From contig NZ_CABPSK010000001.1 of assembly GCF_902459645.1 (NCBI RefSeq), positions 372,001 to 436,000 on the forward strand: a stretch of 64,000 bases of DNA, in the 5' to 3' direction. The notes under the pieces are model-generated. The model was given only the letters and a program-made list of their open reading frames with translations. It was not told where the DNA came from and made no database searches. The DNA is from Pandoraea pneumonica. GTDB lineage: Bacteria; Pseudomonadota; Gammaproteobacteria; Burkholderiales; Burkholderiaceae. Shown here piece by piece: positions 22,861 to 41,054 of the stretch. How positions within the stretch are numbered: the stretch's first letter is position 1; the number at the start of each line of letters is the position of its first letter. The position numbers and the translations under genes are program-made.

Positions 22861-22972
22861 CCGGGCGCGCGAATAGGCCGATACGGCGCAGGATTTTTCT
22901 CGAATTTATCAAGTACCCCTGAATTTCAGGGGGATAGCGCTTCGCGTCCTTTCCATGAGATGAGGCAGTTGG

Positions 22973-23026
22973 CACAATAGCGGGATTCCATTCAATAAAC
23001 CGCCAGAGCGGTACCCCGCTATTGTG
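22973..23026. repeat. Perfect 12-bp inverted repeat covering the methyltransferase start codon
   Basis: CACAATAGCGGG at 22973-22984 and its exact reverse complement CCCGCTATTGTG at 23015-23026 are separated by 30 bases. The right arm ends in the GTG start codon of the downstream methyltransferase. It could be a dyad operator or, in RNA, a stem that sequesters the start. Confidence 0.8.
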
Positions 23027-23764: not shown

Positions 23765-23770
23765 CCGCCC

Positions 23771-25018
23771 TTAGATGCGCGCCAGTGTGAGCGCGCCGTA
23801 GGTGCCACCAAAGCCGAACGTATTGATCAACGCGCTGCGGGCAGCAGCGTCGCGGCTCTCTCTCCAGATCGGATAAGCGGCGGCTTCGGCGGGCAGGCTA
23901 TCGATGTTGGCCGCGCCCGGGACGAAGCCCTCGTGCATCGCCCAGATGGCACAGGCAATCTGCATCGCACCGGCCGCGGCGACCGTGTGACCAGTGATGC
24001 CTTTGATCGAAGTGATGGCCGGTAGCTCGGACACACCGCCGAAGGCATCGGCCAGTGCTGCCAACTCCACGGTATCGCCCTCGACCGACCCATTGGCATG
24101 GGCGCTGATAAAGCCGGGCGGTGCCGGAATATCCTGACAAGCGGCTTTGACGACATCGCTCATTGTCGCGATATCCACACCGAACGCACGCGAAGCGCAA
24201 GTGCCAACACCCACCCCTGTAATTTCGGCGAGCGCTCGGGCACCGCGTGCTTCGGCATGTGCGAGGGTTTCCAGCACGACGATGGCGCCACCGCCTCCGA
24301 GCACGAAGCCGTCGCGCTCGGCGTCGAACGGCCGGGATGCCTTGTCGGGTGTCGCATTGCGCGCGCGGGAGAGGACGCCCATCGCATCGAAACACATCGC
24401 GGCACCCCAAGGGGCTTCCTCACTGCCGCCCGCGAGCATCACATCTTGGCGGCCGAGACGCAGCAGATCGACCGCGTGTCCGACGCAATGAATCGACGTC
24501 GAGCATGCCGACGAAATGGCATATCCCACGCCGCGCAGATCGAATAGGGCAGATAACGCGGCTTGCGCCGTGCTCGACATGGCGCGTGGCACGACGTAGG
24601 GCAATACGCGTGTCGCACCACTTTCTCGCGCGACGTCCAGCGCCTCTTCGAAGTCTTTCATCGCCCCGGTACCGGAGCCGACGACGACACCGCATCGTCC
24701 GTTGCTCAGTGTCGCGGCGTCGAGTCCGGCGTCTGCCACGGCGCGCAGGGCGGCGTGGCTGGCATATAGCGCCGTGTCGCCCATGAACCGCCGCAGCTTG
24801 CGTGGTAACGCCGCGTCGTCGAGCGATCCGGCGTGCGGCCGCCCGGTGACGGTGCTGCGCAGGCCGTGTGCGACGTAATCCGGTGCCTCATGCACGCCGC
24901 TTTTCTGCTGGCGCAACGCGTCGACGATCACCTCGCGCGAATGACCGGCCGCGGAAACCATCCCGAGGCCGGTGACGACCACCCGAGCCAATCCGTCGGG
25001 GCGATGAAAGCGAGACAT
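23771..25018 (-). CDS. Beta-ketoacyl-ACP synthase (additional FabF/FabB-like ketosynthase of the APE cluster)
   Basis: Condensing enzyme of 415 aa with an intact catalytic triad: Cys172 (SSACSTS), His307 (SAHANGSVEGD, a variant of the usual HGT block) and His344 (GITGHTVAAAG), plus the C-terminal NTFGFGGT glycine loop. It should catalyse decarboxylative condensation of malonyl-ACP. The ATG 25018 overlaps the stop of the small exported protein upstream by one base (TGATG), so the two are coupled. It is the fourth KS-family protein of the cluster besides ApeO, ApeR and the ApeC-like protein, and is not in the standard E. coli-type APE gene set as I recall it. Confidence 0.9.
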   Translation of the reverse strand: MSRFHRPDGLARVVVTGLGMVSAAGHSREVIVDALRQQKSGVHEAPDYVAHGLRSTVTGRPHAGSLDDAALPRKLRRFMGDTALYASHAALRAVADAGLDAATLSNGRCGVVVGSGTGAMKDFEEALDVARESGATRVLPYVVPRAMSSTAQAALSALFDLRGVGYAISSACSTSIHCVGHAVDLLRLGRQDVMLAGGSEEAPWGAAMCFDAMGVLSRARNATPDKASRPFDAERDGFVLGGGGAIVVLETLAHAEARGARALAEITGVGVGTCASRAFGVDIATMSDVVKAACQDIPAPPGFISAHANGSVEGDTVELAALADAFGGVSELPAITSIKGITGHTVAAAGAMQIACAIWAMHEGFVPGAANIDSLPAEAAAYPIWRESRDAAARSALINTFGFGGTYGALTLARI

Positions 25019-25503
25019 CAGAGGCGGCGCAGTTCCGCGTTGATGTCGCGGATCAGCGTGTCGACCCAACGGTTGTAGTTGGGGTGAATCATCGGCGTAT
25101 TGGCGGGCAGCGCGGTGTTATTGAAGTCTTCGCGGCGTGAGGAGGCCGCCGGTGCGCCGGAGAGAGCGTACTCGAGATTCGTGCTGTCGCGGTAGGACAC
25201 CGAATACGCCGTTTCCGTGTACTTGATGGTCACCGACGCGTAGTGCTTGTTGCGCACATTGATCGAGGCAACGAGTTCGCCCGGCTTGTCTTGCGTGGTG
25301 GCCCAGTCGTGCCCGGCGGCACCGCGCGTGATAGCACCACGGATCTCTTCGAGCGACAACGGTTTGCCGCTGCCCGAGACGATCGGCATGTTGTCGTGCG
25401 GCACGATCGGCACGGCGGGACGGGCGGCGTGTGCGGCAGGGGCGAGCATGGCCGTCAGGGTGACAGCGAGCGAGGCGGCGAGCAGGCGTCGACGAGTCTG
25501 CAT
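25018..25503 (-). CDS. Small exported protein of unknown function in the APE cluster
   Basis: A 161-aa protein with a Sec signal peptide (about 1-27: Arg-rich start, hydrophobic core, AHAA cleavage region). The mature part is mixed alpha/beta with a SLEEIRGAI segment, a run of beta strands around NKHYASVTIKYTETAYSV, and a C-terminal YNRWVDTLIRDINAELRRL helix. No lipobox cysteine. I recognise no enzyme motif; it resembles small periplasmic proteins of unknown function in Burkholderiales. GGAG precedes ATG 25503. It is separated from apeR by 110 bases that include a hairpin, and its stop overlaps the next KS start. Confidence 0.75.
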   Translation of the reverse strand: MQTRRRLLAASLAVTLTAMLAPAAHAARPAVPIVPHDNMPIVSGSGKPLSLEEIRGAITRGAAGHDWATTQDKPGELVASINVRNKHYASVTIKYTETAYSVSYRDSTNLEYALSGAPAASSRREDFNNTALPANTPMIHPNYNRWVDTLIRDINAELRRL

Positions 25504-25543
25504 GTTTTCTCCATTGCGTTTGTGAGCGACGTTACTGGGTATA

Positions 25544-25563
25544 TCGCCGGTTAGGCCCGGCGA
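25544..25563 (-). repeat. Hairpin between apeR and the two distal genes
   Basis: TCGCCGG and CCGGCGA, perfect 7-bp arms around a 6-base loop, in the only sizeable gap (110 bases) of the operon. No T-run follows on the minus strand, so it is not a standard terminator; it may act as a processing or stability hairpin. Confidence 0.5.
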
Positions 25564-25613
25564 TGACCCCGTTGCGTCATTGGGTTACCAACGTGTTGCG
25601 TAATTGATCGCGT

Positions 25614-26843
25614 TCAATCCACAAATCGTTGAAAGATCAGCGACGTATTGATGCCACCGAACGCGAAGTTATTGCTCATGATTCGCTGCGTTTCCAGTTG
25701 ACGGCCAGCGGCACCGCCGATGTGGTCGAGTGAAGCGCAGGCCGGGTCTGGGGTATCGAGATTGAGCGTGCCGGCAAACCAGTCGCGACGCATCATTTCG
25801 ATGGCCCACCAGGCTTCGATCGCCCCGCAGGCACCCAGCGTGTGACCGAGGTAACTCTTCATGGCGCTAATCGGTACACCGCTTCCGAAGAGGCTGGCGG
25901 TCGCTTCGCTCTCGGCGATATCGCCCCGGTCGGTTGCGGTGCCGTGGGCGCTGATGTAGTCGATGGCGTGCGGTGTCAGCCCGGCATCGTCGAGCGCCAG
26001 TTGCATGGCACGCGCCATGGTGGCAGCGGTAGGTTGCGTGACGTGATTGCCGTCGGTATTACATCCGAAACCGACAATTTCCGCGAGAATCGTGGCGCCG
26101 CGCGCCTGCGCGTGTTCGAGCGATTCGAGCACCAGCGTGGCGGCCCCTTCACCCACGACGAGACCGTCGCGTGCCGCATCGAACGGGCGGGGCGTGAGCT
26201 GCGGTTCGTCATTGCGCGTGCTCGTCGCGTACAGCGTGTCGAACACGGCACTGCCGGGGCCGGACAACTCTTCGGCACCGCCGGCGAGCATCACTTTCGT
26301 GCGGCCGAACCGGATGGCCTCGTAGGCGTAGCCGATCGCCTGACTGCCCGAGGTACATGCGCTCGACGTGGGAATGATGCGGCCTTGCAGTCCGAAATGC
26401 ACGCCGATGTTGACGGCCGTCGTGTGCGGCATCATCTGGATGTAGCTCGTCGAGGTGACGCCCGCCATCGATCCCGTTTCGACCATCACGCCAAACGCTT
26501 GAATCGGCGCGATGCTGCCGGACGACGAACCGTAAGCTACGCCGATATCGCCCGGATCGCCCGCCGTCACGTCGAGCCCAGCATGGGCAAGGGCGTGTTC
26601 GGTGGCCCGAAGCGCCAACTGGGCCACGCGCCCCATCGAGCGCAGTTGCTTGCGTGGCCAGTGGGGCGGCGGCGCGAAGTCTTCTACGGGACAGGCGAGA
26701 CGCCCGTTGAGCATTTCGAAGTAGTCCCACTCCGGCATGCGGCGCACGGCATTCCGGCCGGCGCGCAGTGCAATCTCGATATCTTCCCAGCGGCTGCCTA
26801 AGGCCGTGATGCCGCCGTATCCGGTAACCACAACACGCGTCAT
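25614..26843 (-). CDS. apeR: Beta-ketoacyl-ACP synthase, ApeR-like
   Basis: A 409-aa FabF-type ketosynthase with the full triad Cys163 (SSACTSGSQ), His300 (SAHGTATDRGD) and His334 (KSYLGHTLGACG), and the NNFAFGGIN loop at the C terminus. Position after the ketoreductase matches apeR of aryl polyene clusters (order O-P-Q-R). Start ATG 26843 overlaps the ApeQ stop by one base. It likely condenses malonyl-ACP with the aryl-acyl chain, possibly in priming or a distinct elongation step; the division of labour among the ketosynthases cannot be read from sequence. Confidence 0.92.
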   Translation of the reverse strand: MTRVVVTGYGGITALGSRWEDIEIALRAGRNAVRRMPEWDYFEMLNGRLACPVEDFAPPPHWPRKQLRSMGRVAQLALRATEHALAHAGLDVTAGDPGDIGVAYGSSSGSIAPIQAFGVMVETGSMAGVTSTSYIQMMPHTTAVNIGVHFGLQGRIIPTSSACTSGSQAIGYAYEAIRFGRTKVMLAGGAEELSGPGSAVFDTLYATSTRNDEPQLTPRPFDAARDGLVVGEGAATLVLESLEHAQARGATILAEIVGFGCNTDGNHVTQPTAATMARAMQLALDDAGLTPHAIDYISAHGTATDRGDIAESEATASLFGSGVPISAMKSYLGHTLGACGAIEAWWAIEMMRRDWFAGTLNLDTPDPACASLDHIGGAAGRQLETQRIMSNNFAFGGINTSLIFQRFVD

Positions 26844-27568
26844 CAGATGATCCCTCCATTGACACCGATCACCTGACGCGTCACGTAGCTCGCGCCGTCA
26901 GACATCAAGAACGACACCACGTGCGCCACCTCGTCCGGCGTGCCGACGCGATTCATCGGCACCATGCGCAGGGCTTCGTCCAGCGCTACCCCTTCGAGCA
27001 TGCCCGTGTCCACCAGACCGGGGGCGACGCAGTTCACGGTAATGCGGCGCGATGCGAGTTCGGCCGCCAGTGCTTTAGTGGCGCCGATCAGGCCCGCCTT
27101 GGCAGCGCTGTAATTCACCTGCCCGCGATTGCCCATGACACCGGAGACCGAAGCCACCGTGACAATGCGCCCGCCGGCGCGCAGGCGCACCATCGGCATG
27201 CTGAGCGGGTGAACGACGTTGAAGAAGCCGTCGAGACTTGTATCGAGCACGCTGTCCCAATCGTCGTCGGACAGCGCGGGGAACGCGTTATCGCGTGTGA
27301 TGCCTGCGCCGCAAACAATGCCGTAATAGGCGCCGTGTTCGGCGACATCCGCTTCGAGGGTCTCGCGGCAGGTCTGCCGGTCGCGCACGTCGAACTGCAC
27401 GAGATGGGCGGTACCGCCGGCCGCGCGAATTTCGGCCACGGTGGCCTCACCGGGGCCGACTTGTTCGCGGCAATGGACGGTGACGGCAAAGCCGTCCTGA
27501 GCGAGGCGCAGGGCAATTGCCCGCCCGATGCCCCGGCTGCTGCCGGTGACGAGAACGCGTCGGGTCAT
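26843..27568 (-). CDS. apeQ: 3-oxoacyl-ACP reductase, ApeQ-like
   Basis: A 241-aa FabG-type short-chain dehydrogenase that would reduce the beta-keto group on the growing polyene using NADPH. It has the cofactor motif TGSSRGIG (8-15), the catalytic Ser140, Tyr153 and Lys157 in ASVSGVMGNRGQVNYSAAKAG-type context, and the C-terminal VNGGII. Its ATG overlaps the ApeP-like stop by four bases. Cytosolic. Placement between dehydratase and ketosynthase genes supports the APE role over housekeeping fatty-acid synthesis. Confidence 0.94.
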   Translation of the reverse strand: MTRRVLVTGSSRGIGRAIALRLAQDGFAVTVHCREQVGPGEATVAEIRAAGGTAHLVQFDVRDRQTCRETLEADVAEHGAYYGIVCGAGITRDNAFPALSDDDWDSVLDTSLDGFFNVVHPLSMPMVRLRAGGRIVTVASVSGVMGNRGQVNYSAAKAGLIGATKALAAELASRRITVNCVAPGLVDTGMLEGVALDEALRMVPMNRVGTPDEVAHVVSFLMSDGASYVTRQVIGVNGGII

Positions 27569-28032
27569 GATAGATGCTCCAACAAAAATGCAGAAAAATC
27601 GGTCGGCTGATGAACCTTGATCGTGGCGCTGGCAACGGCGTCGCCGTCGATGTCCACGCGGCAGTCGTAAGCTCCGTTGCCAGTGTCGTCGCGCAGCACG
27701 CAGGCCGCGCGCACCAGCACCGGCACGCCGGCGCGCAGCGACGCGACATTCGCTTCGAGCCTGCGCGTACCGAGCAACACGCCGGGTGCCGGTGGCAGGC
27801 CGCTGTTGCGGCGTGTGAGCGCCTCATGCGCGGCAATCGCCTGCGCCATGAGTTCGATCACGATATGAACGGGCATGTTGCCGCTCGCGTCGGCGTACCA
27901 CGCATGCGCGTCGGGCGTTGCCTGAACGCAGATCGACTCGGCATCGTATTCGCAGACGGCGTCGATCAACAGCATGGGCGGCCGGTGCGGTAGCAGGGTT
28001 TCGATGGGCGGCCATGGCGTCGACGCGGTCAT
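27565..28032 (-). CDS. apeP: ApeP-like hotdog 3-hydroxyacyl-ACP dehydratase
   Basis: A 155-aa hotdog protein starting with the FabZ-type LLPHRPPMLLID block (13-24) and carrying HIVIELMAQAIAAHEAL, where Glu and Gln occupy the usual active-site helix. In characterised APE systems ApeP pairs with ApeI as a dehydratase heterocomplex; the ApeI partner here is fused to ApeH. Start and stop overlap the flanking genes by four bases each. Confidence 0.88.
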   Translation of the reverse strand: MTASTPWPPIETLLPHRPPMLLIDAVCEYDAESICVQATPDAHAWYADASGNMPVHIVIELMAQAIAAHEALTRRNSGLPPAPGVLLGTRRLEANVASLRAGVPVLVRAACVLRDDTGNGAYDCRVDIDGDAVASATIKVHQPTDFSAFLLEHLS

Positions 28033-29237
28033 TGCCAGGCCTCCGCACGCGAGAGAATCACACTGGCGTTGTTACCGCCGAATGCATACGCGTTCGTCAT
28101 CACATGACGGGGCGCGCGGCCCAGTGTGGTGCCGACAGGGGTGAGACGTAACGGGCTGAGTGTCTCATCGGTAGCGCCGTCCCAGACGTGCGGCGGCAAA
28201 CGGCCGCCGGCTTCTAGCGTGAGCCAGCAAATGCCGATGCCGGTGGCGCCTGCGGCACCGAGCAGATGGCCTGTCATCGGCTTGGTGCCACTCACCCAAG
28301 GCGAATGCTCGAAGCAGGTGTGCGTCGCGAGACTTTCCATGGCGTCGTTCTTCGGTGTGCCCGTGGCATGCAGATGCACGTAGTCGATTTGCGCAGGAGC
28401 GAGACCGGCGTCGCGTAATGCGGCGCGCATGGCATCGATGGCACCGCTGCCGTCAGGGGCCGGCGCCGAAATGTGATGGGCGTCGCTCGAATCGCCAATG
28501 CCGGAAAAGACGATGTTCCCGGGCGTGCGTGACATCAGGCAGAGCATCGCCCCTTCGCCGATGTTGATGCCGTCGCGATGACGGCTCATGGGGCGCGACA
28601 GACCTTGCGCGAGCGACTCGAGCGCGCCAAAACCACCGAGCGTCAGCGCACACAGGGCATCTGCACCACCGGTCACCACCGCATCGCACACGCCGCTATC
28701 GATGAGACGGCGAGCCGCGCCAAACGCCTTTGCACTCGAGGTGCAGGCCGTCGAAATGGTGTAGGCGGGGCCATGGACCCCCAGCAGTTCGGCAAGGAAC
28801 TGCGCCGGGGCGCCGAGCGCCTGCTGCCGGTAGTGATAGTGGCCCGGCAATGTGCCGCTGGCGGCGAGTGAGCGCAGTGCCGCTTCGCCTTCTGCGATAC
28901 CCGAGGTACTCGTGCCGATGACCACGCCGATGCGCGTCGCGCCATGGCGTTGAATGTGTTCTGCCAGCACGGCACGCAAGGGTTCGGCGGCGGCAACCAA
29001 AAAGCGGTTGTTGCGGCAGTCGTAGCGCTTTAGCCGGTCGGGAAGCGAGGGAAGTTCGTGATCGGGAAGGCGCACCGCACCGACCACAGGCGCCGAATGC
29101 GTACCAGCGGCATGCCATTGGCCGTGCGCCTGCATGCCCGACGTGTCGCCGGCGAACAGACGCTCGGCGATATCGGGCAGATCATGGCCCAGCGCATTGA
29201 TCATGCCGAGCGCGTGGAGATAGACAGGGGACTTCAT
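28029..29237 (-). CDS. apeO: Beta-ketoacyl-ACP synthase, ApeO-like
   Basis: A 402-aa FabF-type ketosynthase. Catalytic residues are Cys165 (ISTACTSSAKAF), His290 (HLHATGTPKND) and His324 (MTGHLLGAAGA), with NAYAFGGNN near the C terminus. In studied aryl polyene systems ApeO forms a ketosynthase/chain-length-factor pair with ApeC, which is present at the head of this operon. Its ATG overlaps the MMPL stop by four bases and its stop overlaps apeP by four. Confidence 0.92.
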   Translation of the reverse strand: MKSPVYLHALGMINALGHDLPDIAERLFAGDTSGMQAHGQWHAAGTHSAPVVGAVRLPDHELPSLPDRLKRYDCRNNRFLVAAAEPLRAVLAEHIQRHGATRIGVVIGTSTSGIAEGEAALRSLAASGTLPGHYHYRQQALGAPAQFLAELLGVHGPAYTISTACTSSAKAFGAARRLIDSGVCDAVVTGGADALCALTLGGFGALESLAQGLSRPMSRHRDGINIGEGAMLCLMSRTPGNIVFSGIGDSSDAHHISAPAPDGSGAIDAMRAALRDAGLAPAQIDYVHLHATGTPKNDAMESLATHTCFEHSPWVSGTKPMTGHLLGAAGATGIGICWLTLEAGGRLPPHVWDGATDETLSPLRLTPVGTTLGRAPRHVMTNAYAFGGNNASVILSRAEAWQ

Positions 29238-31690: not shown

Positions 31691-32379
31691 TCGACTGTTC
31701 GCAGCAAACGTTGCTCGTTCGCATCGAGCGCGTCGCCCGTGCGCACCTTCTCGAACTGCCATCGCACGGACTCGCCACGCCGGGTCTCGAGCGCGACACC
31801 GCGCACGACGGTATCACCGTTGAGCGTGAGGCGGCGCATGGCCTGCGCAACCTGCGGTTGCGATGGCGTCAGCACGATCTGCCAGCGGTTCACGGTGCCT
31901 GTGACGGCGACCGAGAATTGCGACGCTAACCCGCTGGTGTCGCCGTGCATGAATGCGCTAGTCCACTCGTTGATTTGTTGCGTGAGCGCCGACGCTTGCA
32001 TGTCGAGCGACAACACCGTGCCGTCGGCATCGAGGCGGGCGCTGCGCTGCCGGCCGTAGACATACCCTTGCGGCTGGGGCGAATGCACTTGCCAGACCAC
32101 CCCGCGTTCACGCGCGAATACGAGCGAGCCGCGGGTGATCGCCGGCGCTGAGAGTAGCGGCGACGTGCGCGTCTGGAGAAAATCAGCGTGCACGACGGGG
32201 TAGGCGCCGATCTGCGCAAGAATGCGCTTGAGCAATGCCAGGTCTGCCGCCGCAGAGTCTTGTGTCGGCACCGGCGCGGACTCGACGGCCACAACCGCAG
32301 GCGCCGCGGACATACCGATGAGCGATAGCACGACGGGAAGCAGTGCGCTTGCCGCGCGCTGGGTCAGGCGGCGGCCCAT
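31687..32379 (-). CDS. apeL: LolA-like outer-membrane lipoprotein carrier, ApeL-like
   Basis: A 230-aa exported protein with a signal peptide (about 1-31) and a LolA-type half-barrel: an initial LLKRILAQIGAYPVVHADFLQTRTSPLL segment resembles the N-terminal helix and first strands, followed by SLVFARERGVVWQVHSP. In APE clusters such carriers are presumed to ferry the lipidated pigment across the periplasm, in line with the MMPL exporter encoded next. It overlaps the thioesterase gene by 16 bases. Confidence 0.87.
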   Translation of the reverse strand: MGRRLTQRAASALLPVVLSLIGMSAAPAVVAVESAPVPTQDSAAADLALLKRILAQIGAYPVVHADFLQTRTSPLLSAPAITRGSLVFARERGVVWQVHSPQPQGYVYGRQRSARLDADGTVLSLDMQASALTQQINEWTSAFMHGDTSGLASQFSVAVTGTVNRWQIVLTPSQPQVAQAMRRLTLNGDTVVRGVALETRRGESVRWQFEKVRTGDALDANEQRLLRTVE

Positions 32380-32822
32380 GCGGCCTCCAACTTCTCAACG
32401 ACCACAGGCGGACTCACGAATTGCAGTTCACCGTTGCGCGCATCGACGGCAACTTGCACGGTGTAGCCCTTGGTGATGCGTTCTTCGGTGGCGATATCGT
32501 GAATCTCATACGCAATACGTAAGCGGTTCTCGTACTCGGTGAGCGACGCGCTCACGCGCACGCGCTGTCCGTAACGCGCCGGACGGACGTATTTGAGATG
32601 ACACTCGACAACCGGCCACACGTAACCGGAAGCCTGCATTTGCGGATAGTCGTAGTCGAAGCGGCGCAGCAGTGCGCAGCGAGCGAGTTCGAAGTATTTG
32701 ACGTAATGGCCGTGCCATGCGACTTGCATCACATCGACGTCATGGAAGGGAATCTCGACGTCGGCCGTCGCAACGAGCCACGGTGCCTTTTCCGGCCGGC
32801 GGCCGACGGTGTCAGTCGTCAT
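32364..32822 (-). CDS. apeK: Acyl thioesterase (4HBT family), ApeK-like
   Basis: A 152-aa hotdog thioesterase of the 4-hydroxybenzoyl-CoA thioesterase/YbgC class. The active-site block FHDVDVMQVAWHGHYVKYFE (27-46) contains the catalytic aspartate and the HGHY tract, followed by VVECHLKYVRPARYGQ. It may release stalled or finished chains from ACP. ATG 32822 lies inside the end of the ammonia-lyase gene (11-base overlap). Confidence 0.88.
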   Translation of the reverse strand: MTTDTVGRRPEKAPWLVATADVEIPFHDVDVMQVAWHGHYVKYFELARCALLRRFDYDYPQMQASGYVWPVVECHLKYVRPARYGQRVRVSASLTEYENRLRIAYEIHDIATEERITKGYTVQVAVDARNGELQFVSPPVVVEKLEAAWAAA

Positions 32823-34434
32823 GGGGCAGGTCGCCTCCTTCGGCAATCCACGCACGTACGGTACGCAACTCGTGTTCAAGCGCGCGATCTTCGTCGACGA
32901 ACGGCGACCGAGCGGCGACGCTATCGAGCCACTGGCGCAACGTGTCAGGCAACGGTGCGCTGTCGGGCGAGAGGCGTTCGCGCAGTTTTACCGCTTGCGC
33001 GACGGCGAGCGTGTGGGCGGCAGCCACCTGCTCGGTGAGCATCAGTACGCGCAGGCAATCGCGCGCCGCGATCGTCCCCATGCTGACCTTGTCTTGGTTA
33101 TGCGACTCGGTGGAGCGTGAGAACACGCTGGCCGGCATGGTGTGCTTGAGTGCCTCGGCGGTCCACGCCGACGCGCCGATCTGCACCGCCTTGAAGCCGT
33201 GATTGATCGGGGCGCGCGGTCCGGTAGCGCCGCTGAGATTGCGGGGCAGGCCGTTGTTGAACTTGTCGTCCACGAGCAGCGCCAGTTGGCGGTCCATCAG
33301 GTCCGCGATATTGGCGACCGCCGTTTTCAGGCTGTCCATCGCGAACGCAATGTGCCCGCCGTAGAAGTTGCCGCCGTGATGCACTTCACCGGTATCGGGA
33401 TCGATGAGCGGATTGTCGTTGGCGCTGTTGATCTCGTTCTCGACGTCGCGACGCACCCAACTGAGGGCATCGACGAGCACCCCGACGACGTGCGGCGCGC
33501 ATCGCAGCGAGTAACGATCTTGAATCCGAGCTTCTGGCGGTTCCATGCGGCCGGCCAGATCGTCGCGAATCCAACGGGCGGCGTCGCGTTGCCCTTCGTG
33601 CGGCTTCGCGTCGAAGAGCGTCGGGTGGAAGTGTGCTGCGCGGCCGTCGAGCGCCACGGTCGTGAGTGCCGTCAGGCGGGACGCCAGTCGCGCCAGTGAG
33701 CGGCTTCGCGCGAAAGCGAGGCTGGCCAGCGCCGTCATGACGGCCGTGCCGTTCATCAGCGCGAGGCCTTCCTTGGGGGCCAGGCGAATCGGTGCACCGC
33801 CCGTGGCGGCCAGCGCTTCGGTGGCAGCGCACAGGCGGCCGCGATACCTGACGTCACGCTCACCGATAAGGGTGGCTGCCACGTAGGAGAGCGGTGTGAG
33901 GTCGCCGCTGGCGCCCACGGAGCCTTCCGCCGGAATGCGCGGCAACACGTCATGTGTGAGCAGGTGGACGAGCGCCTCGAGCAGTTCCGGACGGACCGCC
34001 GAGTATCCCTGGGCAAGCGACGCCAGACGGCAGGCGAGCACGGCACGTACGGCGTCGTCGTCGAGCCATTCCCCCATGCCGCAGCCGTGATAGCGGGTGA
34101 GTTGGGCGGGCAGGGCTTCGATGAGCGTGGCTGGCACGTCGACGACGCAGGCATCGCCATAGCCGGTAGTCACGCCATAGACGGGGCGTCCCGCCGCGAG
34201 ATGGGCGTGGAGTGCGTCGACGCCGCGACGAATGCGGTCTCGCCACGCAGCGTCGGTCGACAAACGCGCGCGACGGGTGCGCTGCGCCAGCGCCAGAATG
34301 TCTTCGATCGTCAGCCGGTCGTGACCGAACACCACGGCCGACGCGTCGCTGAGGCGGGCATCGGGCACAGCATGGCGAGCGGGGTTGCCGGTGCCGTCGA
34401 GGGCGCCGGAGAGTGAAATCGGGAGTTCCATCAT
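32812..34434 (-). CDS. MIO-dependent aromatic amino acid ammonia-lyase (HAL/PAL/TAL family)
   Basis: A 540-aa lyase of the histidine/phenylalanine/tyrosine ammonia-lyase family. The MIO-forming Ala175-Ser176-Gly177 (GSVGASGDLTPLS), catalytic Tyr86 (PVYGVTTGYG), NGT at 228-230 and the SANDNP loop are present, so it should be active. Substrate reading: the glutamate that binds histidine in true HutH (ANQEDHVSM) is replaced by Gln447 (HNQDKVSM), as in tyrosine ammonia-lyases; the substrate-ring selectivity pair is Tyr115-His116. It therefore probably makes cinnamate or 4-coumarate as the aryl starter rather than urocanate. ATG 34434 overlaps the preceding stop by four bases. Confidence 0.87.
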   Translation of the reverse strand: MMELPISLSGALDGTGNPARHAVPDARLSDASAVVFGHDRLTIEDILALAQRTRRARLSTDAAWRDRIRRGVDALHAHLAAGRPVYGVTTGYGDACVVDVPATLIEALPAQLTRYHGCGMGEWLDDDAVRAVLACRLASLAQGYSAVRPELLEALVHLLTHDVLPRIPAEGSVGASGDLTPLSYVAATLIGERDVRYRGRLCAATEALAATGGAPIRLAPKEGLALMNGTAVMTALASLAFARSRSLARLASRLTALTTVALDGRAAHFHPTLFDAKPHEGQRDAARWIRDDLAGRMEPPEARIQDRYSLRCAPHVVGVLVDALSWVRRDVENEINSANDNPLIDPDTGEVHHGGNFYGGHIAFAMDSLKTAVANIADLMDRQLALLVDDKFNNGLPRNLSGATGPRAPINHGFKAVQIGASAWTAEALKHTMPASVFSRSTESHNQDKVSMGTIAARDCLRVLMLTEQVAAAHTLAVAQAVKLRERLSPDSAPLPDTLRQWLDSVAARSPFVDEDRALEHELRTVRAWIAEGGDLPHDD

Positions 34435-36245
34435 GACTGTGGCGACTTGCCTTGCCAGAAATCGAAAAAGTTGAACCACTGCGTCGGGTATTGCCGGCAG
34501 TAGTGCTCGAGACGTTGCGCGTACTGCTCGGCGTAGCTGCGCAATGCCGCTTCGCGTCGGGCGCGTGGCAATGTCACCGCATCGGCGAACCGTTCGAAAT
34601 ACAGCCGGTAAATATCCGTGCCGCGACGTTTGTTAGGGCCTTTGTCGCGCAGGCAGAAGAGCAGATACACCGGACATTCGAGCAACGCGGCAAGAATGAA
34701 CGGGCCTTGGGCAAAGGGGGCGGGTTCGCCGAAGAAGGGCACCTGCACCACGCGTCCACCGTCGGCGGACGGCACGCGATCGCCCACAATGACAAGCCAG
34801 TCGCCACGGTCGATGCGCTCGCGCAGCATGATGGCGGTGGCGGGGCCGATGTCGTCGACTTCGATCAGGTTGTGCGCAAAGTCCTGATTCGTCCCGGCGA
34901 GCATGGAACGGAAGCGCTGCGCGTGGCGGGTGTAGACCACCGCGTGAATGCGATCGATGCCGCGCGAACGGGCGAGTGCCCGCGTCATCTCCAGATTGCC
35001 GAGGTGCGATCCGATCACGAGCGCGCCACGGGCATCGTTGGCGGCGGTGTCGAGCGTTGCGTCGTCCTCGACCTGCACGTGGCGCTCACCGAGCAGTCCG
35101 CGCCAGGCGGCGAATTTGTCCAGTGCGGCGTTGGCGAACGCGAGTAGATGCTGGAACGTGCGCCAGCGCGTCGGGGCTGCCCAGCCAAGTTCGGGGGCCG
35201 CCGTGCCAAGCCGCTGTTGGTAGTCGCGCGAGGCGGCACAGGCCTGCGTGTCCTTCAAGGCGAAATAGGCCACCACCGGGATCAGGCAGACGCGCGCCGT
35301 ACGCAGGCCAAACCATCGGCAGGCAAGCGCCAGCACGCGCATGCCTAGCAGACTACCGCGCTCGGGGCGCCGCCACCAAGCGAGGTTGGTCGTAGCGTCG
35401 GGCGCGTCGGGCGTGGGAAGTGAGGCCGGTGGTGTTGCCGATGTCCGGCACAGCTTGCGCCATAACAATGCCGGTATGCGGGGCAGCATCGCGCAAACGA
35501 GCCGCGTATGCATCCACGAAATGCCCACGTTGTCGCGGAACATCTGGAAGTGCGATACCCCGTTGTCCGGATAGACGACGCGTGTGCGCCGGTTCTGCAC
35601 GGGCACCCCTTGCCAGTACAGGCGCACCAGAATGTCCGTGTCGAACGCCATGCGCGGTGGCGGCCGATGCCGTGCGAGCAGGGCGGCGGTGGCGGCTAGC
35701 GGATACACGCGAAACCCGCACATCGAATCGGCGATATCGAACGACAGCGTCTCGACCCACACCCAAAAGTGCGTGATATAGCGGCCGTACAAACGCCCCT
35801 TGGGGACCGACGCATCGTAGCGAGGCGTTCCGCAGATCACCGCATCGGGGCGCTGACGTGCGTCATCGAGAAAGACGGGGACGTCCGCGAGATCGTGCTG
35901 ACCATCGGCGTCGACTTGCAACGCGTGCGTATAGCCAAGCGTATGCGCCCGACGTAATCCGTGGGCGACCGCGCCGCCTTTGCCGAGGTTGCGCGGCAGG
36001 CGTTCGAGCGTCACCGTGTGCGGATGCGCAGCATGAATGGCATCGAGCACGGCCCGCGTGGGCGCATCGCTGCCGTCGTCGACCAGCAGAACCGGCAGCG
36101 CTTGGGCGAGCAAGGTCTCGACGATGCGCGCGATATGCGCCGGGTGGTTGTACACCGGAATCAGAATGCAAGGCCGGAAGGGCTGGCAGGGCTGGCAAGG
36201 CGAAGCGGCATCGGGCAAGCGCTGGGCATCGAGGCGTGCGTTCAT
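34431..36245 (-). CDS. apeJ: Fused family 2 glycosyltransferase and LpxL/HtrB-like acyltransferase, ApeJ-like
   Basis: A 604-aa two-domain protein. The N-terminal GT2 domain (about 24-250) opens with ILIPVYN, has the acidic LLVDDGSD and the LQVDADGQHD motif (Asp112, Asp114). The C-terminal domain (about 295-600) resembles lysophospholipid/lauroyl acyltransferases, with the HX4E catalytic pair His414/Glu419 in GSHLGNLE, VGDRVP and the PFFGEPAPFAQGP block. A hydrophobic stretch (about 308-330) may anchor it. It would decorate and acylate the polyene with a sugar/lipid moiety at the inner membrane. ATG 36245 overlaps the ApeHI stop by four bases. Confidence 0.87.
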   Translation of the reverse strand: MNARLDAQRLPDAASPCQPCQPFRPCILIPVYNHPAHIARIVETLLAQALPVLLVDDGSDAPTRAVLDAIHAAHPHTVTLERLPRNLGKGGAVAHGLRRAHTLGYTHALQVDADGQHDLADVPVFLDDARQRPDAVICGTPRYDASVPKGRLYGRYITHFWVWVETLSFDIADSMCGFRVYPLAATAALLARHRPPPRMAFDTDILVRLYWQGVPVQNRRTRVVYPDNGVSHFQMFRDNVGISWMHTRLVCAMLPRIPALLWRKLCRTSATPPASLPTPDAPDATTNLAWWRRPERGSLLGMRVLALACRWFGLRTARVCLIPVVAYFALKDTQACAASRDYQQRLGTAAPELGWAAPTRWRTFQHLLAFANAALDKFAAWRGLLGERHVQVEDDATLDTAANDARGALVIGSHLGNLEMTRALARSRGIDRIHAVVYTRHAQRFRSMLAGTNQDFAHNLIEVDDIGPATAIMLRERIDRGDWLVIVGDRVPSADGGRVVQVPFFGEPAPFAQGPFILAALLECPVYLLFCLRDKGPNKRRGTDIYRLYFERFADAVTLPRARREAALRSYAEQYAQRLEHYCRQYPTQWFNFFDFWQGKSPQS

Positions 36246-38152
36246 TGCGGCACATCTCCGGCAACGACGTCCGCGGAGGCGGACGGCGCGGGATATGCGA
36301 GATAGCCGGTGGCGGCCGTGCCTTTCGCCCCTTCGTAGGCGTAGTGCACGCGGCAGCGGGAAACATCGTACGTCAGCGAGAGATCGAACCGTGTCCCTGG
36401 CAATACAGGGGCAGAGAATTTCACTTGCTGCAACGTGTTCGGCGCGCTCACCCACGCACCTAGCGCGGGGTCGGCCGACGCATGTTCCGCGGCGAATCGG
36501 GTGGCCCAGTCGATGAGCACGACGCCGGGCAACAGCGGCAGTCCGGGGAAATGGCCTTCGAAATGCGCCAGATCGGGCGGCACGCGCAATGACAGCACGA
36601 CCGCGCGCGCCTTGTCCGGCAGCGTCCCGGTGCCATTCGCCTCGTCTGTGTCGTTCAGGCGAACGCCCATCACCGACGGCAGCCACGGGGAGGCCGGTGA
36701 GAAGAGCGCGGCCACGTCCGCAGCCGTGCGCTTACCCCGATCATTCAGGGGAAGCGCCGCGAGAAAACGCCAGCGTCTTGGGAGCAAGGTCGCATCGAAC
36801 GTCTCTGCCAGCGAGTTGCGCATAGCGGTGCGTACCGCACCCAGCGATTGTTCGCGCCATGCACGCCGACCGGCGCGGCTCAACACGACCGCAGCAGCAA
36901 GACGTCCGGCAATCACTACCGTAGCTGCGTCGTCGACCCATGCATGGCGCAACAGCGCCGCTTCCACCGCCGGTAACGAGACTCGCTTGCCTTCGATCTT
37001 CACCGTGCGGTCGAGCCGCCCCGTCATGACGAACGAACCGTCTGGGTTCACGATGGCCCCGTCGTCGGTCGGCCACCATTGCCCGTCGTTCACGCGCGGC
37101 GAACGGATTTCTAATGCGCCATGGTCCGAGACTCGCACCGTCGTGTCGTCAAACGGCGTCCATTGCGATGTGCGGTCTTGCTGGCGCCACGCGATGCCGC
37201 CGGTCTCGGTGCTGCCGAAGACTTCGACCGGCGCACAGGCATCGCTAACCGAGGCCGCCGCGCGCGACACGCGTGCGAGGCGGGCGCATTGCAGTGCAGC
37301 GTCAGCCGGTAGCGGACCGCCGGAGGAAAACGTGAGGCGCGGGGCGTCGGGCCAGGCACCGGCGCTGTCGCTGATGTCGACGTCGACACCGAGTAGCGCC
37401 GGCCAGCGCGTCAATTGGGCGGGGCCGGCGATCCAGACCACGGCCGGCCACGTGCGCCATGCCACGGCTTGCGAGGGCTCTGCGAAGGTGTGGCGGGCGA
37501 ACGGAACGCCAGCGGCCAACGGCCACAGCACACGGAACCACAGCCCATAAATGTGATGACACGGCACACTGGCGACCACCAGCGCGTTCTGAAGTTGTGC
37601 GCCCCAATGCCGGTGCAGTGCCTGCACTTCATCGTCGAGCTGTGCCAGCGTTTTCGTGATCGCCTTCGGTTCGCCGCTGCTCCCCGATGTGTAAATGATC
37701 AACTGACAGGACGCGGCGAGCGCCTCGTGCGGTGTCGACGTTTCACTCTGCGTCGCAGCATTCGCGGCGTCGTGGCTTATCGCGTCGCACGCCAATGTTT
37801 CGGCATCGACGGCCTCGTCGAAGGCGAACGCGAAGTCGCGTCGCGTCTGAGGCAGCGCGTTGGGCAGCACGACCGGCGTTTTGCCCGCCGACCAAGCGGC
37901 GAAGAGCGCACTGCTCATGTCGAACGGATCGTCCAGACAGAGTGCGAGACGTTGCGCGGGTCGCGCGGAAAAAGCGATCCGCAACAACTGAACGCGGGCA
38001 TGCCACGCGTGCGCCGTCAGTGGAGCGGCGTTGTCTGCGGGCGATCGGCCGTCCACGCAGACAACAAGTGTCGGCGCACGCGGCCGACACACGATCTCGG
38101 CCAGCGGCGTGCAGCCTAGGGCTTGCTGTGAAACGGGATTCACACGACTCAT
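36242..38152 (-). CDS. apeH: Aryl-acid:ACP ligase fused to hotdog dehydratase (ApeH-ApeI fusion)
   Basis: A 636-aa fusion. Residues 1-480 are an ANL adenylating enzyme: P-loop YTSGSSGEPK (154-163), the FGSTETGG block (312-319), the TGRLDRTVKIEGKR hinge (377-390) and the catalytic Lys474 (LNDRGKRT). After a short linker, residues about 515-636 form an ApeI/FabA-type hotdog dehydratase with FEGHFPGLPLLPG, whose His534 is the expected catalytic base. In the APE genes I know, ApeH and ApeI are separate. ApeH would activate the aryl acid and load it on ACP; ApeI with ApeP dehydrates 3-hydroxyacyl-ACP. ATG 38152 overlaps the apeG stop by four bases. Confidence 0.9.
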   Translation of the reverse strand: MSRVNPVSQQALGCTPLAEIVCRPRAPTLVVCVDGRSPADNAAPLTAHAWHARVQLLRIAFSARPAQRLALCLDDPFDMSSALFAAWSAGKTPVVLPNALPQTRRDFAFAFDEAVDAETLACDAISHDAANAATQSETSTPHEALAASCQLIIYTSGSSGEPKAITKTLAQLDDEVQALHRHWGAQLQNALVVASVPCHHIYGLWFRVLWPLAAGVPFARHTFAEPSQAVAWRTWPAVVWIAGPAQLTRWPALLGVDVDISDSAGAWPDAPRLTFSSGGPLPADAALQCARLARVSRAAASVSDACAPVEVFGSTETGGIAWRQQDRTSQWTPFDDTTVRVSDHGALEIRSPRVNDGQWWPTDDGAIVNPDGSFVMTGRLDRTVKIEGKRVSLPAVEAALLRHAWVDDAATVVIAGRLAAAVVLSRAGRRAWREQSLGAVRTAMRNSLAETFDATLLPRRWRFLAALPLNDRGKRTAADVAALFSPASPWLPSVMGVRLNDTDEANGTGTLPDKARAVVLSLRVPPDLAHFEGHFPGLPLLPGVVLIDWATRFAAEHASADPALGAWVSAPNTLQQVKFSAPVLPGTRFDLSLTYDVSRCRVHYAYEGAKGTAATGYLAYPAPSASADVVAGDVPQ

Positions 38153-38799
38153 GCCGATGCCTCCGGCGGTTGCACGTGCCCGGCTTTGGCGGCGGCCTGC
38201 TTTGCAAGCATGCGGCGGCGCCAAAGCCATTCGGCAGCGAATAGCAGACCGATCAGGACATAGGCGATACCGCCGTTATAGAGGGACCAGACTTCGCGCG
38301 ACGCCCAAAGGGCCGTGGCCAGCGCGACGGCGCCATTGAAGACGAAGAAGCCAATCCATACCCGCGTGACCTTACGCAAATAGGGCGTGGCGTCCGCCGG
38401 CAAATCGGGCTGATGCAGCCGGGCAATACGTTCGACCATCGGCATCGGCGAGCGCAACGACATGGCGAACGTCAGTCCCATGCCGACATTGACGGCCACC
38501 GGGTAGCAGCGCAGCAGCAGTTCGCTGTTACTGAGCGCCGTGGCGCAAGCGAGGGCAGCCAGTCCACCGGCAACGGCCCATTCGACCGGCATGAGCAGAC
38601 GGTGAGACTTCAGATTGCGACGGTAACGCAGGTAGATCCCGACGAGCAGCAGTAACGCGAGATAACGCGGCGCGAGCAGCGAGATCCCGGCGAGTATCAG
38701 CACCGGGTAGGCGAGCGCCGCGATAACGGACTGCCAGCGCACTCTCGCCTGCGTAGCGTGCGGCAGCGAGGCCGCGGCATCGGCATGAAGTCGGGACAT
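38149..38799 (-). CDS. apeG: ApeG-like integral membrane protein (COG4648 type)
   Basis: A 216-aa predicted inner-membrane protein with about five hydrophobic segments (about 24-50, 55-75 weaker, 85-105, 140-160 and 165-185) and a Lys/Ala-rich cytosolic tail. Such proteins are a regular member of aryl polyene clusters; the function is unknown. A nine-base gap separates it from the upstream ACP gene, and its stop overlaps the next start by four. Confidence 0.82.
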   Translation of the reverse strand: MSRLHADAAASLPHATQARVRWQSVIAALAYPVLILAGISLLAPRYLALLLLVGIYLRYRRNLKSHRLLMPVEWAVAGGLAALACATALSNSELLLRCYPVAVNVGMGLTFAMSLRSPMPMVERIARLHQPDLPADATPYLRKVTRVWIGFFVFNGAVALATALWASREVWSLYNGGIAYVLIGLLFAAEWLWRRRMLAKQAAAKAGHVQPPEASA

Positions 38800-38808
38800 A
38801 CAAGCGAA

Positions 38809-39075
38809 TCAGCCGTTGAGCAGGGTACGGACGGCGGACACCACGTCAGCGACGGTGCGCACGCTCTTGAATTCTTCAGGCTGGATGCGTTTGCCGGTCA
38901 TCCGTTGCAACTGGATGGCGAGATCCACCGCATCGATGCTGTCGAGATCCAACTCTTCGAACAGATGCGCCTGCAATGTGATGCGCTCGGGCGCGATCTC
39001 GAACGTGTCATGCAGGATGGTACGCAGACGCGACAGAATTTCGTCGTCGGACAGGGGTAACGTCAAGGTGCTCAT
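38809..39075 (-). CDS. apeF: Acyl carrier protein, ApeF-like
   Basis: An 88-aa carrier protein with the phosphopantetheine attachment serine Ser46 in LDLDSIDAVDL. Four-helix ACP pattern and an acidic helix II region are evident. One of two tandem ACPs that carry the growing polyene. It starts 12 bases after the stop of the other ACP. Confidence 0.93.
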   Translation of the reverse strand: MSTLTLPLSDDEILSRLRTILHDTFEIAPERITLQAHLFEELDLDSIDAVDLAIQLQRMTGKRIQPEEFKSVRTVADVVSAVRTLLNG

Positions 39076-39087
39076 CGCTAGGGTTCC

Positions 39088-39351
39088 TTACTGGGCGCAA
39101 CCGCGCTCGCGCAACAACTGCGCCAGGGTGGCAACGCTGCGGAACTGCGCGCGCGCTGCCTCATCGTTCGCTTCGATCTGCAAGCCAAAGCGCTTGCGCA
39201 GGGCAATGCCCAGCTCGAGCGCGTCGATGGAGTCCAGGCCGAGGCCGTCACCAAAAAGGGGGACGTCGTCGACGATGTCGTCCACGCCGATGTCTTCCAG
39301 TTCAAGTGCCTGGACAATCAATTGCTTGATCTCAAGTTCTAGAGAAGCCAT
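39088..39351 (-). CDS. apeE: Acyl carrier protein, ApeE-like
   Basis: An 87-aa carrier protein with Ser41 in GLDSIDALEL as the modification site. It is more acidic than the second ACP, and the two are clearly different sequences, suggesting separate roles (starter loading versus elongation), which is inference. Its start overlaps the acyltransferase gene by 20 bases. Confidence 0.93.
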   Translation of the reverse strand: MASLELEIKQLIVQALELEDIGVDDIVDDVPLFGDGLGLDSIDALELGIALRKRFGLQIEANDEAARAQFRSVATLAQLLRERGCAQ

Positions 39352-40225
39352 GTTGAGAAATCTGATCGATGAAGAAATGTTCGGCGAGCGTGGTCAAACG
39401 TCTCGCTGCCAAAGGCATCTGTGTGCCAATCGTTTCGCCGCTCGCGTTGCCGGTTGTAACGACGCTTGCGTCATGCCGAGTCGGGCTCGCCGGCGACTCG
39501 GCGCGGCTGCCGTGCGGTTGCGCGACAGCGGGGCTCAGGTCGGCATCCAGAACGCGAATGCGCAGGGTCGGCTGAGCGGCGGGTACGGAGTACCAACGGT
39601 GTTGTTTGGTGTAGGCGGGCGGGTCGCAGTCGATCAGCACCGGCACGATCGGACAGTCATGCGCCAGCGAGATATGCGCGAAGCCACGTGAGAACTTGCC
39701 GAGGCGGCCCCGCGACGGACTGCGCGTGCCTTCGGGAAAGACGATGAGCGGCACGTTGTCGGCCAGTGCCGCTTCGCTGGCGCTCACGAGCGACGGACCC
39801 CCGTCATTACGCAGGTAGCCGGCCGAGCGCACGATGCCCGCGAAGAATGGGTTACGCCAGTGGCGGCTCGTGACGATGCAACACGCACGCGGCATGAGCG
39901 CGAGCAACACGGCCACGTCCAGATATGACGGGTGGTTGGCGATGACGATGACGCGCCCCAAATGGCGCAGTCTGTCGGCATTCTCGATCTCGAACCGCAT
40001 GACACCCAAGGCGCGGCACGCCGCGACCAGTGATGCAAAACAGCGATGCACCATGGCCATCGCATAGCGCCGACGACGACGCACGGACACCGGCAACAGG
40101 AGCAACGACGGGAAGACGATCAGCGAGAAGACCAGACCGCCGACGGCAAAGCAAGACCAAAGGAGCAGCGAAGCCGCCCGGCGGTGCAACGGTGCGCCCC
40201 GGCGCAGGATGTCAGGCGCACGCAT
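39332..40225 (-). CDS. apeD: 1-acyl-sn-glycerol-3-phosphate acyltransferase-like protein, ApeD-like
   Basis: A 297-aa membrane-anchored acyltransferase of the PlsC class. An N-terminal hydrophobic segment (about 15-45) precedes the catalytic block with the HX4D motif in IANHPSYLDV (around 92-101), and the substrate block FPEGTRSPSRGRLGKFSRG lies near 155-175. It probably transfers an acyl group to or from the aryl polyene at the inner membrane. I chose ATG 40225 (overlapping the ApeC stop by 14 bases); an upstream start at 40261 would lengthen it by 12 residues. Confidence 0.88.
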   Translation of the reverse strand: MRAPDILRRGAPLHRRAASLLLWSCFAVGGLVFSLIVFPSLLLLPVSVRRRRRYAMAMVHRCFASLVAACRALGVMRFEIENADRLRHLGRVIVIANHPSYLDVAVLLALMPRACCIVTSRHWRNPFFAGIVRSAGYLRNDGGPSLVSASEAALADNVPLIVFPEGTRSPSRGRLGKFSRGFAHISLAHDCPIVPVLIDCDPPAYTKQHRWYSVPAAQPTLRIRVLDADLSPAVAQPHGSRAESPASPTRHDASVVTTGNASGETIGTQMPLAARRLTTLAEHFFIDQISQHGFSRT

Positions 40226-41054
40226 GCTGAGTCTCCTCCTGCCATGCCCACTGCCAGTCATGCCGCTCGCCGCGCCAGATATCGCTGCCGCCGCCCATGA
40301 GCGACGTGAGCAGGCTGCTGCTTTGCGAGCGCGACTCGGCGCAGGTGTCGCGCCCGGCGGGCAAATGCATCGTGCAGGTCAGGCGCGCGGTCGCGTCGGC
40401 CGAGATCAGCAGCGCAATGGCATTGGCACTGTCGTCGGGTTGTCCTGCCGTGGGGCCATAACAGGCGGGTGGCGCATCGAACGCGAAAATCACCAGCAGC
40501 GGCGTGTCCGGCGTTTCGCGATGCTGCGTCCACGCGTCGAGCAGGGCATAGCCGAGCGTGTCGTCGGCGGCCGAGACGGCGTTGATGGCGGAGCGGTCGT
40601 GACGCGCAATGCTGAGCACGCCTGGCGTGGCATTGAGTACCGACAGGCTGAACGCGGTAGGCGACGGCGGTTCGCGCCGCACCAGCGCTTCTAGCATTTG
40701 CGTGGTGCGTTGAATTTCGCCGTGCTGCGATGCGTACACCACGCGGCAGGCAGGCGGCAGCGGGCCGCAGGCGACGGCAGCCGACAGCGCGAGCCGCGCG
40801 AGGGGGCTCAGACGGCGGCGCAGCATGGGGTCGATGTCGCCGACGTCCGGTTTGCCGGGCGTCGCCGCATTCAACTGACGATAGGCCCAACGGCGCACCG
40901 GCAGATCCCAGCGCGCAACGGGGCCCGCCAATGCGGCAGCCGCCGTGGCTTGCTCGGATATCGCCGGCTCCGGCGCGGATTCCACAATGCTGACTTCCCC
41001 CGAAGCCCATTGCGGCGCGCGACGCATCGTTTGCGCGTCGATGTTATCTGGCAT
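40212..41054 (-). CDS. apeC: Ketosynthase-like chain length factor, ApeC-like
   Basis: A 280-aa protein of the truncated ketoacyl-synthase-like family (Ketoacyl-synt_2). The block FSLSVLNATPGVLSIAR (about 134-150) aligns with the condensing-enzyme active site but has no cysteine, as expected of a chain-length factor rather than an active KS. In characterised APE systems ApeC pairs with ApeO. It is the first gene of the operon. A Met-Pro start at 41054 lies after an AT-rich leader; no strong ribosome site is obvious. Confidence 0.85.
   Translation of the reverse strand: MPDNIDAQTMRRAPQWASGEVSIVESAPEPAISEQATAAAALAGPVARWDLPVRRWAYRQLNAATPGKPDVGDIDPMLRRRLSPLARLALSAAVACGPLPPACRVVYASQHGEIQRTTQMLEALVRREPPSPTAFSLSVLNATPGVLSIARHDRSAINAVSAADDTLGYALLDAWTQHRETPDTPLLVIFAFDAPPACYGPTAGQPDDSANAIALLISADATARLTCTMHLPAGRDTCAESRSQSSSLLTSLMGGGSDIWRGERHDWQWAWQEETQHACA

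Follow-up and report, generated by a model that had tools for sequence, protein, structure and literature searches.

An aryl polyene operon with a predicted aromatic amino acid ammonia-lyase in Pandoraea pneumonica

The window, here the whole stretch of 64,000 nucleotides that was analyzed (Pandoraea pneumonica assembly GCF_902459645.1, contig NZ_CABPSK010000001.1), contains 17 open reading frames between positions 23771 and 41054, all of them on the minus strand. Their proteins belong to Pfam and NCBIfam families that fit an aryl polyene (APE) cluster, and BLASTP against the ape proteins of E. coli CFT073 gave a collinear match order from apeC to apeR (percentages and E values in brackets are to the E. 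coli counterparts). At the high-numbered end lies apeC, coding for a chain-length-factor-like ketosynthase partner (40212-41054; PF13723; 25%, 9e-12), followed by the acyltransferase gene apeD (39332-40225; Pfam; 34%, 1e-30) and two acyl carrier protein genes, apeE (39088-39351; Pfam; 55%) and apeF (38809-39075; Pfam; 55%). The membrane protein gene apeG (38149-38799; 49%) is without a Pfam or NCBIfam match. A single fused gene for an AMP-ligase and a dehydratase (36242-38152) combines apeH (29%, 2e-45) and apeI (32%, 7e-11), and apeJ encodes a glycosyltransferase/acyltransferase (34431-36245; Pfam; 46%). An MIO-type ammonia-lyase gene (32812-34434; PF00221) is placed between apeJ and the thioesterase gene apeK (32364-32822; Pfam; 54%). 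The LolA-like periplasmic carrier ApeL (31687-32379; Pfam; 25%, 9e-10) and the MMPL-type exporter ApeM (29234-31690; Pfam; 28%, 1e-71) are encoded next. The series then continues with the ketosynthase gene apeO (28029-29237; 43%; NF006618 over cut-off), the dehydratase gene apeP (27565-28032; 32%, 1e-15; PF22817 over cut-off), the ketoreductase gene apeQ (26843-27568; 62%; FabG2 model TIGR01831 over cut-off) and the ketosynthase gene apeR (25614-26843; 59%; NF006587 over cut-off). Two extra genes close the 3' end. X1 (25018-25503) encodes an apeA-like exported protein (35% to E. coli ApeA, 1e-15) without a Pfam or NCBIfam match, and X2 (23771-25018) an extra FabB-like ketosynthase recognized by profile matches.

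A sequence-only reading of this DNA had described 17 minus-strand genes in the E. coli/Xenorhabdus-type order, a lyase between apeJ and apeK and two additional 3' genes, and had called the whole an APE pigment cluster; the frames, the families and the gene-by-gene match to E. coli agree with it. It had also placed overlaps of 1 to 20 bases between nearly all genes from 41054 to 25614. With the most plausible start codons, as chosen by us, 13 of the 16 junctions do overlap (by 14, 20, 4, 4, 4, 11, 16, 4, 4, 4, 4, 1 and 1 bases), whereas three are gapped, namely E/F (12 bases), F/G (9 bases) and R/X1 (110 bases). The APE core set is present by BLASTP against E. coli: ketosynthase O, the chain-length-factor-like C, ketoreductase Q, dehydratases I and P, two carrier proteins and ligase H, with the ApeP-like and ApeI-like Pfam models both over cut-off. 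The same comparison also recovered every one of the genes for anchoring and export (D, J, L and M). Neither apeB nor apeN of E. coli CFT073 had a significant BLASTP match among the 17 genes, and it is doubtful that these two genes help to define the APE family. Judged by gene content, 23771-41054 is almost certainly an operon of the Vibrio fischeri type that makes and exports an APE. The cluster is genuine and in essence an ordinary one for an aryl polyene pigment bound to the membrane, and it opens no new class.

The earlier description left out one gene. A SAM-dependent methyltransferase (Methyltransf_11) is encoded on the plus strand at 23024-23764, convergent with the operon, and is present in the same 6 of 32 genomes of the genus as the cluster; because of this co-occurrence we link it to the cluster. 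The idea that it is an ApeB homologue was rejected (BLASTP, E 0.07).

The methyltransferase and the operon belong to one block. ApeP and a close lyase were each found in exactly 6 of the 32 genus genomes, and the six are the same for both. Among 150 genomes of the family, every one of the 36 that bear the lyase also has an ApeP match. In 21 of the 26 genus genomes that lack the block, the TANGO2 and reductase genes that flank it lie 31-968 bases apart with the block absent. From one close relative to the next, the cluster is either present or missing as a single block. Its G+C content (65.3%) is close to that of the window flanks (63.8% and 64.2%), and so composition gives no sign of foreign origin.

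The lyase can be placed by its residues. The Ala-Ser-Gly (MIO) triad is present in 82 of 82 aligned lyase sequences, and the 81 cluster lyases (the window and 80 named loci) all carry [Tyr/Phe]-His in motif 1 and Gln in motif 2, with Tyr as the first residue of motif 1 in the window lyase. The genome's own HutH-like protein (C1:642181-643560), 36% identical to the window lyase, has Ser-His at motif 1 and Glu at motif 2. According to the accessible part of PMC3992019, Glu at motif 2 is characteristic of histidine lyases and Gln of tyrosine and phenylalanine lyases, and the window lyase combines the MIO triad with Gln, not Glu. For tyrosine lyases the same part of that paper gives His as the opening residue of motif 1; this His is absent from all 81 cluster lyases, which have Tyr or Phe instead. 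This leaves phenylalanine as an alternative to tyrosine for the window lyase, with its Tyr at that position. The columns of the motif 1 His and motif 2 Gln of the cluster lyases are likewise filled by His and Gln in the tyrosine enzyme SgTAM (2ohy), which too is without His at the first position, so the His rule for tyrosine lyases is not absolute. Overall similarity hardly separates the candidates among solved structures (SgTAM 5.7e-73; histidine lyases 7tqr 5.4e-71 and 1gkm 3.3e-70). The closest NCBIfam model is the tyrosine ammonia-lyase BagA/FevW (448 bits), and all eight of the NCBIfam models that match are below their own cut-offs. The enzyme probably acts on tyrosine, or on phenylalanine, and 4-coumarate is likely to be the starter. 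The claim that the aryl acid is made in the operon from an aromatic amino acid is supported, at the level of sequence, by the Gln signature, the position of the gene and its co-occurrence with the cluster.

The explanation that we consider probable is an APE operon in which a tyrosine (less likely phenylalanine) lyase makes a 4-coumarate starter. The lyase would deaminate L-tyrosine (less likely L-phenylalanine) to 4-coumarate, which ApeH would activate and load onto carrier protein E or F. ApeO with its partner ApeC, reductase Q and dehydratases I and P would then carry out repeated C2 extension without enoyl reduction, giving a conjugated polyene that K would release. D and J would join the polyene to a lipid or sugar anchor, and L and M would transport the product to the outer membrane, and there it would act as an antioxidant. 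The methyltransferase that is inherited along with the cluster probably acts on the head group or on the acid. Since 4-coumaroyl is 4-hydroxybenzoyl lengthened by one C2 unit, the lyase route would lead to the same skeleton with one round of extension fewer.

The sequence-only reading had gone further and derived the aryl acid from an amino acid "instead of from chorismate", which is too strong. UbiC, the chorismate lyase that is the source of 4-hydroxybenzoate, is encoded in the genome (over cut-off, 74 bits), so 4-hydroxybenzoate is also available. Xenorhabdus ApeH loads 4-hydroxybenzoate, as stated in the accessible part of PMC8253772. It is conceivable, if rather unlikely, that the main starter is 4-hydroxybenzoate supplied by UbiC, as in E. 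coli, and that the lyase tops up the supply or makes a minor second head group. Clusters of the E. coli type function without a lyase, and of the 54 genomes of the family in which ApeP passes its cut-off, 18 lack a lyase match at E 1e-100. However, the close lyase occurs in all six ApeP genomes among the 32 of the genus, and the window lyase lies within a chain of overlapping genes, which points to a constant role.

It is very improbable that the locus is a cluster for xanthomonadin/arcuflavin or for flexirubin, possibly one with a resorcinol partner. LolA, the exporter and the acyltransferase are parts in common with xanthomonadin systems (PMC3949708, accessible part), and a tyrosine ammonia-lyase is used in flexirubin too (PMC3992019, likewise in part), but the E. 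coli ape gene order is retained here and the Pfam and NCBIfam scans of the cluster genes named no resorcinol gene. The lyase reaches 321 bits on the FlxA model against a cut-off of 700. The FkbO/Hyg5-type model TIGR04444, which we take to cover XanB2, was used as the stand-in for a XanB2-type chorismate enzyme, and in the whole genome its sole match was a partial one of 30 bits, in a frame of 139 amino acids. Among the 150 family genomes this model matched 28 at E 0.001 and 23 at E below 1e-30, with only 4 over the curated cut-off. The proposal that lyase and XanB2-type enzyme are mutually exclusive, as alternative starter supplies, failed, since 8 of the 23 strong TIGR04444 genomes also have the lyase; only 1 of the 18 ApeP-positive, lyase-negative genomes is among those 23. 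Finally, that the lyase is a second, histidine-acting HutH unconnected with the pigment is scarcely credible in spite of its family-level likeness (410 bits to TIGR01225, cut-off 539), given that 81 of 81 cluster lyases have Gln where HutH has Glu, that the genome already has a separate HutH-like gene and that 77 of the 80 named loci keep the lyase between J and K.

A more far-reaching joint reading is offered tentatively, as something that may well not hold in full. The lyase would be the main starter source in this APE subtype, 4-coumarate would be loaded directly on the carrier protein, so that both chorismate lyase and the first round of extension are skipped, and output would track the tyrosine pool. 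Lyases with [Tyr/Phe]-His and Gln would be a separate class of tyrosine lyases, the methyltransferase would make a distinct head group, and the whole block would be a single unit, lost again and again within the genus from one fixed site.

The locus is of practical value. APE clusters of the lyase-bearing subtype are widespread, and whether they start from 4-coumarate or 4-hydroxybenzoate can be tested simply. Close relatives that carry the block and others that lack it at the same site provide a natural comparison for pigment function. In the accessible parts of PMC3992019, PMC11596576, PMC8253772, PMC5851621, PMC3949708 and PMC8719888, no proteobacterial APE lyase was tested biochemically; such a test would most probably be found in Grammbitter 2019 and Schoener 2016, and we do not claim that it is unpublished.

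Among known systems, APE_Vf of Vibrio (Aliivibrio) fischeri ES114 (MIBiG BGC0000837, as given in PMC8719888), with homologues in Pseudomonas, Burkholderia and Vibrio, shares with the window the lyase and the ketosynthase, reductase and acyl/glycosyltransferase genes, as far as its published description goes (accessible parts of PMC5851621 and PMC8719888). Both papers name an ammonia lyase as a gene of APE_Vf-type clusters, and the feature of that subtype, a lyase within the ape operon, is present here. Two Aliivibrio loci (L053 and L059) have the lyase between J and K. With the two papers, the frequency of that arrangement means that it is not new; a cluster type with its own aromatic-amino-acid ammonia-lyase is already described, and the lyase, which had been presented as a trait of this strain, is common in the subtype. 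The extra 3' ketosynthase X2 was found in 31 of the 80 named loci, and in many Vibrio/Photobacterium loci the HI matches fall in two pieces, which may mean separate genes, whereas they are fused in the window. The E. coli CFT073 cluster is collinear over C-M and O-R and the window has the apeA-like X1, but E. coli has apeB and apeN and lacks X2 and the lyase (best E 4.4, not significant, for the window lyase against its 36-kb stretch by BLASTP); in the window apeN is absent and the methyltransferase has no significant likeness to apeB. Xanthomonadin/arcuflavin systems resemble the window in having a type II FAS-like apparatus for polyene synthesis and genes for export, but they use a XanB2-type chorismate enzyme and not a lyase (PMC3949708, in part). 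The aryl supply had been likened to both flexirubin and xanthomonadin systems, and only the first likeness stands: in flexirubin the aryl starter is supplied by the tyrosine ammonia-lyase FlxA (PMC3992019, in part), although the window lyase is far below the cut-off of that model. The right comparison for a lyase-fed starter is with flexirubin (FlxA) and the V. fischeri-type APE.

All 17 frames of the 18-kb minus-strand aryl polyene (APE) operon that the sequence-only reading had placed at 23771-41054 are present, and its APE identification is largely right, as judged by Pfam and NCBIfam families and by collinearity with the ape genes of E. coli CFT073. Family searches in Pfam and NCBIfam recovered, all on the minus strand, a chain-length-factor-like ketosynthase domain (apeC), an acyltransferase (apeD), two carrier proteins (apeE and apeF), an AMP-ligase fused to an ApeI-type dehydratase (apeH-apeI), a glycosyltransferase with a lipid-A-type acyltransferase (apeJ), an aromatic lyase between apeJ and apeK (32812..34434), a thioesterase (apeK), LolA (apeL), an MMPL exporter (apeM), ketosynthases (apeO, apeR and X2, the latter one of two extra 3' genes), the ApeP dehydratase and a FabG2-type reductase (apeQ). 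No Pfam or NCBIfam family matched apeG or the other extra gene, X1; by BLASTP the former matches E. coli ApeG at 49% and the latter E. coli ApeA at 35% (1e-15). When the most plausible starts are used, overlaps of 1 to 20 bases occur at 13 of the 16 gene junctions, and the largest gap, between apeR and X1, is 110 bases. G+C content of the window is 64.3%. Presence, gene order, residue signature and co-occurrence are all that is demonstrated for the cluster, and the ape enzymes would have the roles of their homologs in the E. coli/Xenorhabdus pathway.

A SAM methyltransferase gene on the plus strand (23024-23764), missed in the sequence-only reading, converges on the operon, separated from the X2 end by six bases. 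Within the genus its distribution is that of the cluster: all six APE genomes carry it, and none of the 26 others does. Together, operon and methyltransferase form a block at a fixed site (22860-41455) between a zinc-type reductase gene and TANGO2, which flank it in 6/6 APE genomes of the genus and are 18.6 kb apart in the window. The same two genes lie together without the block in 21/26 cluster-less genomes; five were left out of this count owing to a missing TANGO2 match (G010), loci cut short (G165 L142 and G164 L148), a locus in which no reductase was found (G072 L149) or no locus (G048). Between aligned ends, the distance without the block is 31 to 191 bases in 20 genomes and 968 bases at the remaining cluster-less locus, L132, where the extra length could be a cluster remnant. 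A FastTree phylogeny built from three flanking genes (28 genomes) scatters the six APE genomes among block-less ones. The ape-gene tree of the six pairs G000 with G163 and G101 with G160, matching the flank tree; G117 stands beside the G000-G163 pair in the ape-gene tree, but beside G154 in the flank tree. The simplest reading is that the block has been lost repeatedly from one ancestral site.

Relatives of the lyase, of any kind, were sought in one genome per species, yielding at least 594 confirmed relatives, of which the best 80 were taken as named loci. Among these, the order apeJ-lyase-apeK on one strand holds in 77/80, and all 14 other ape genes are found in 63/80, several loci terminating at contig ends. 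The three exceptions have apeJ located elsewhere (L048), just apeC, apeE and the lyase recovered (L056), or the lyase placed after apeR (L075). The methyltransferase accompanies at least 36 of these best 80, with flanks cut in many, and is opposite to the operon in 26 and on the same strand in 10, all Pseudomonas. The best 80 include Paraburkholderia, Burkholderia, Caballeronia, Trinickia, Pseudomonas, Vibrio, Photobacterium and Aliivibrio, and the best matches of the window lyase, among those listed, are from Burkholderiaceae. The ApeJ match is split in two at several loci in the range L041 to L082, Pseudomonas for the most part; either the glycosyltransferase and the acyltransferase are separate genes there or the linker between them has diverged.

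Within the genus, ApeP occurs in 6/32 genomes, and it is these six that carry a close lyase (84-100% identity); the remaining lyase matches (35-39% identity) are comparable to the genome's own histidine lyase, HutH. Across 150 family genomes, apparently the same set for the lyase, ApeP and XanB2-type searches, a lyase at E 1e-100 was found in 36 and ApeP in 59 (54 over cut-off). Every one of the 36 lyase-bearing genomes has an ApeP match, counted per genome and not by gene adjacency. Shared ancestry makes the genomes non-independent, so that Fisher values for this co-occurrence overstate the case. Among the 36, the small genome G023 (2.6 Mb) shows no more than a lyase fragment interrupted by two stops, perhaps from a decayed cluster; this partial match is listed on both C12 and C23. 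A strict need for the lyase is disfavored, since 18 of the 54 genomes with ApeP over cut-off have no lyase at E 1e-100.

The lyase most likely starts at ATG 34434, overlapping apeJ by four bases. An alignment of 82 sequences combined it with its counterparts from the 80 named loci and with HutH. Ala-Ser-Gly is present in 82/82; motif 1 is Tyr-His in 43, Phe-His in 38 and Ser-His in HutH alone, and motif 2 is Gln in 81 and Glu in HutH alone. Under the rule in a supporting legend of PMC3992019, Glu at motif 2 marks histidine lyases and Gln tyrosine and phenylalanine lyases, which disfavors histidine as substrate. By the same legend, motif 1 of tyrosine lyases begins with His, and a textbook tyrosine lyase is thus disfavored by the Tyr or Phe that the cluster lyases have there. 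This His is likewise absent from the tyrosine enzyme SgTAM (2ohy), whose next column holds His and whose motif 2 holds Gln, just as in the cluster lyases. Overall similarity (SgTAM, 5.7e-73; histidine lyases, 5.4e-71 and 3.3e-70) decides nothing between an SgTAM-like and a histidine-lyase identity. Our best guess at the substrate is tyrosine, with phenylalanine a possible alternative.

The lyase likely feeds a starter branch, and another branch may coexist. UbiC is encoded in the genome and 4-hydroxybenzoate is therefore available; Xenorhabdus ApeH uses this acid, according to PMC8253772. No XanB2-type enzyme was found in the genome beyond a 30-bit partial match. Mutual exclusion of XanB2-type enzyme and lyase was rejected, there being no such exclusion in the 150 family genomes. 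Given UbiC, the Xenorhabdus substrate and this lack of exclusion, the lyase-fed branch is not necessarily the sole one. The claim that the aryl acid is made from an aromatic amino acid instead of from chorismate was thus an overstatement, and the xanthomonadin analogy was wrong. Elsewhere in the family, weak ApeP-like matches have an FkbO/Hyg5-type chorismate enzyme at a distance of ~2.5 to 13 kb (G017 C13, G053 C185 and G088 C10), a proximity that may indicate a second, xanthomonadin-like cluster type.

The lyase-bearing arrangement is not special and is an already known cluster type: PMC8719888 counts an ammonia lyase among characteristic APE cluster genes, with APE_Vf as reference, and PMC5851621 lists one among genes shared with the cluster of V. 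fischeri ES114. For comparison protein by protein, the E. coli CFT073 ape locus was used, its letters allotted by gene order; the published gene table (PMC8253772) was consulted through J. None of the 17 operon genes significantly matches E. coli apeB or apeN by BLASTP, the methyltransferase has no significant similarity to ApeB, and the lyase has no significant match in the CFT073 stretch compared (best E 4.4). The window genes apeC through apeM and apeO through apeR are collinear with the E. coli CFT073 ape locus.
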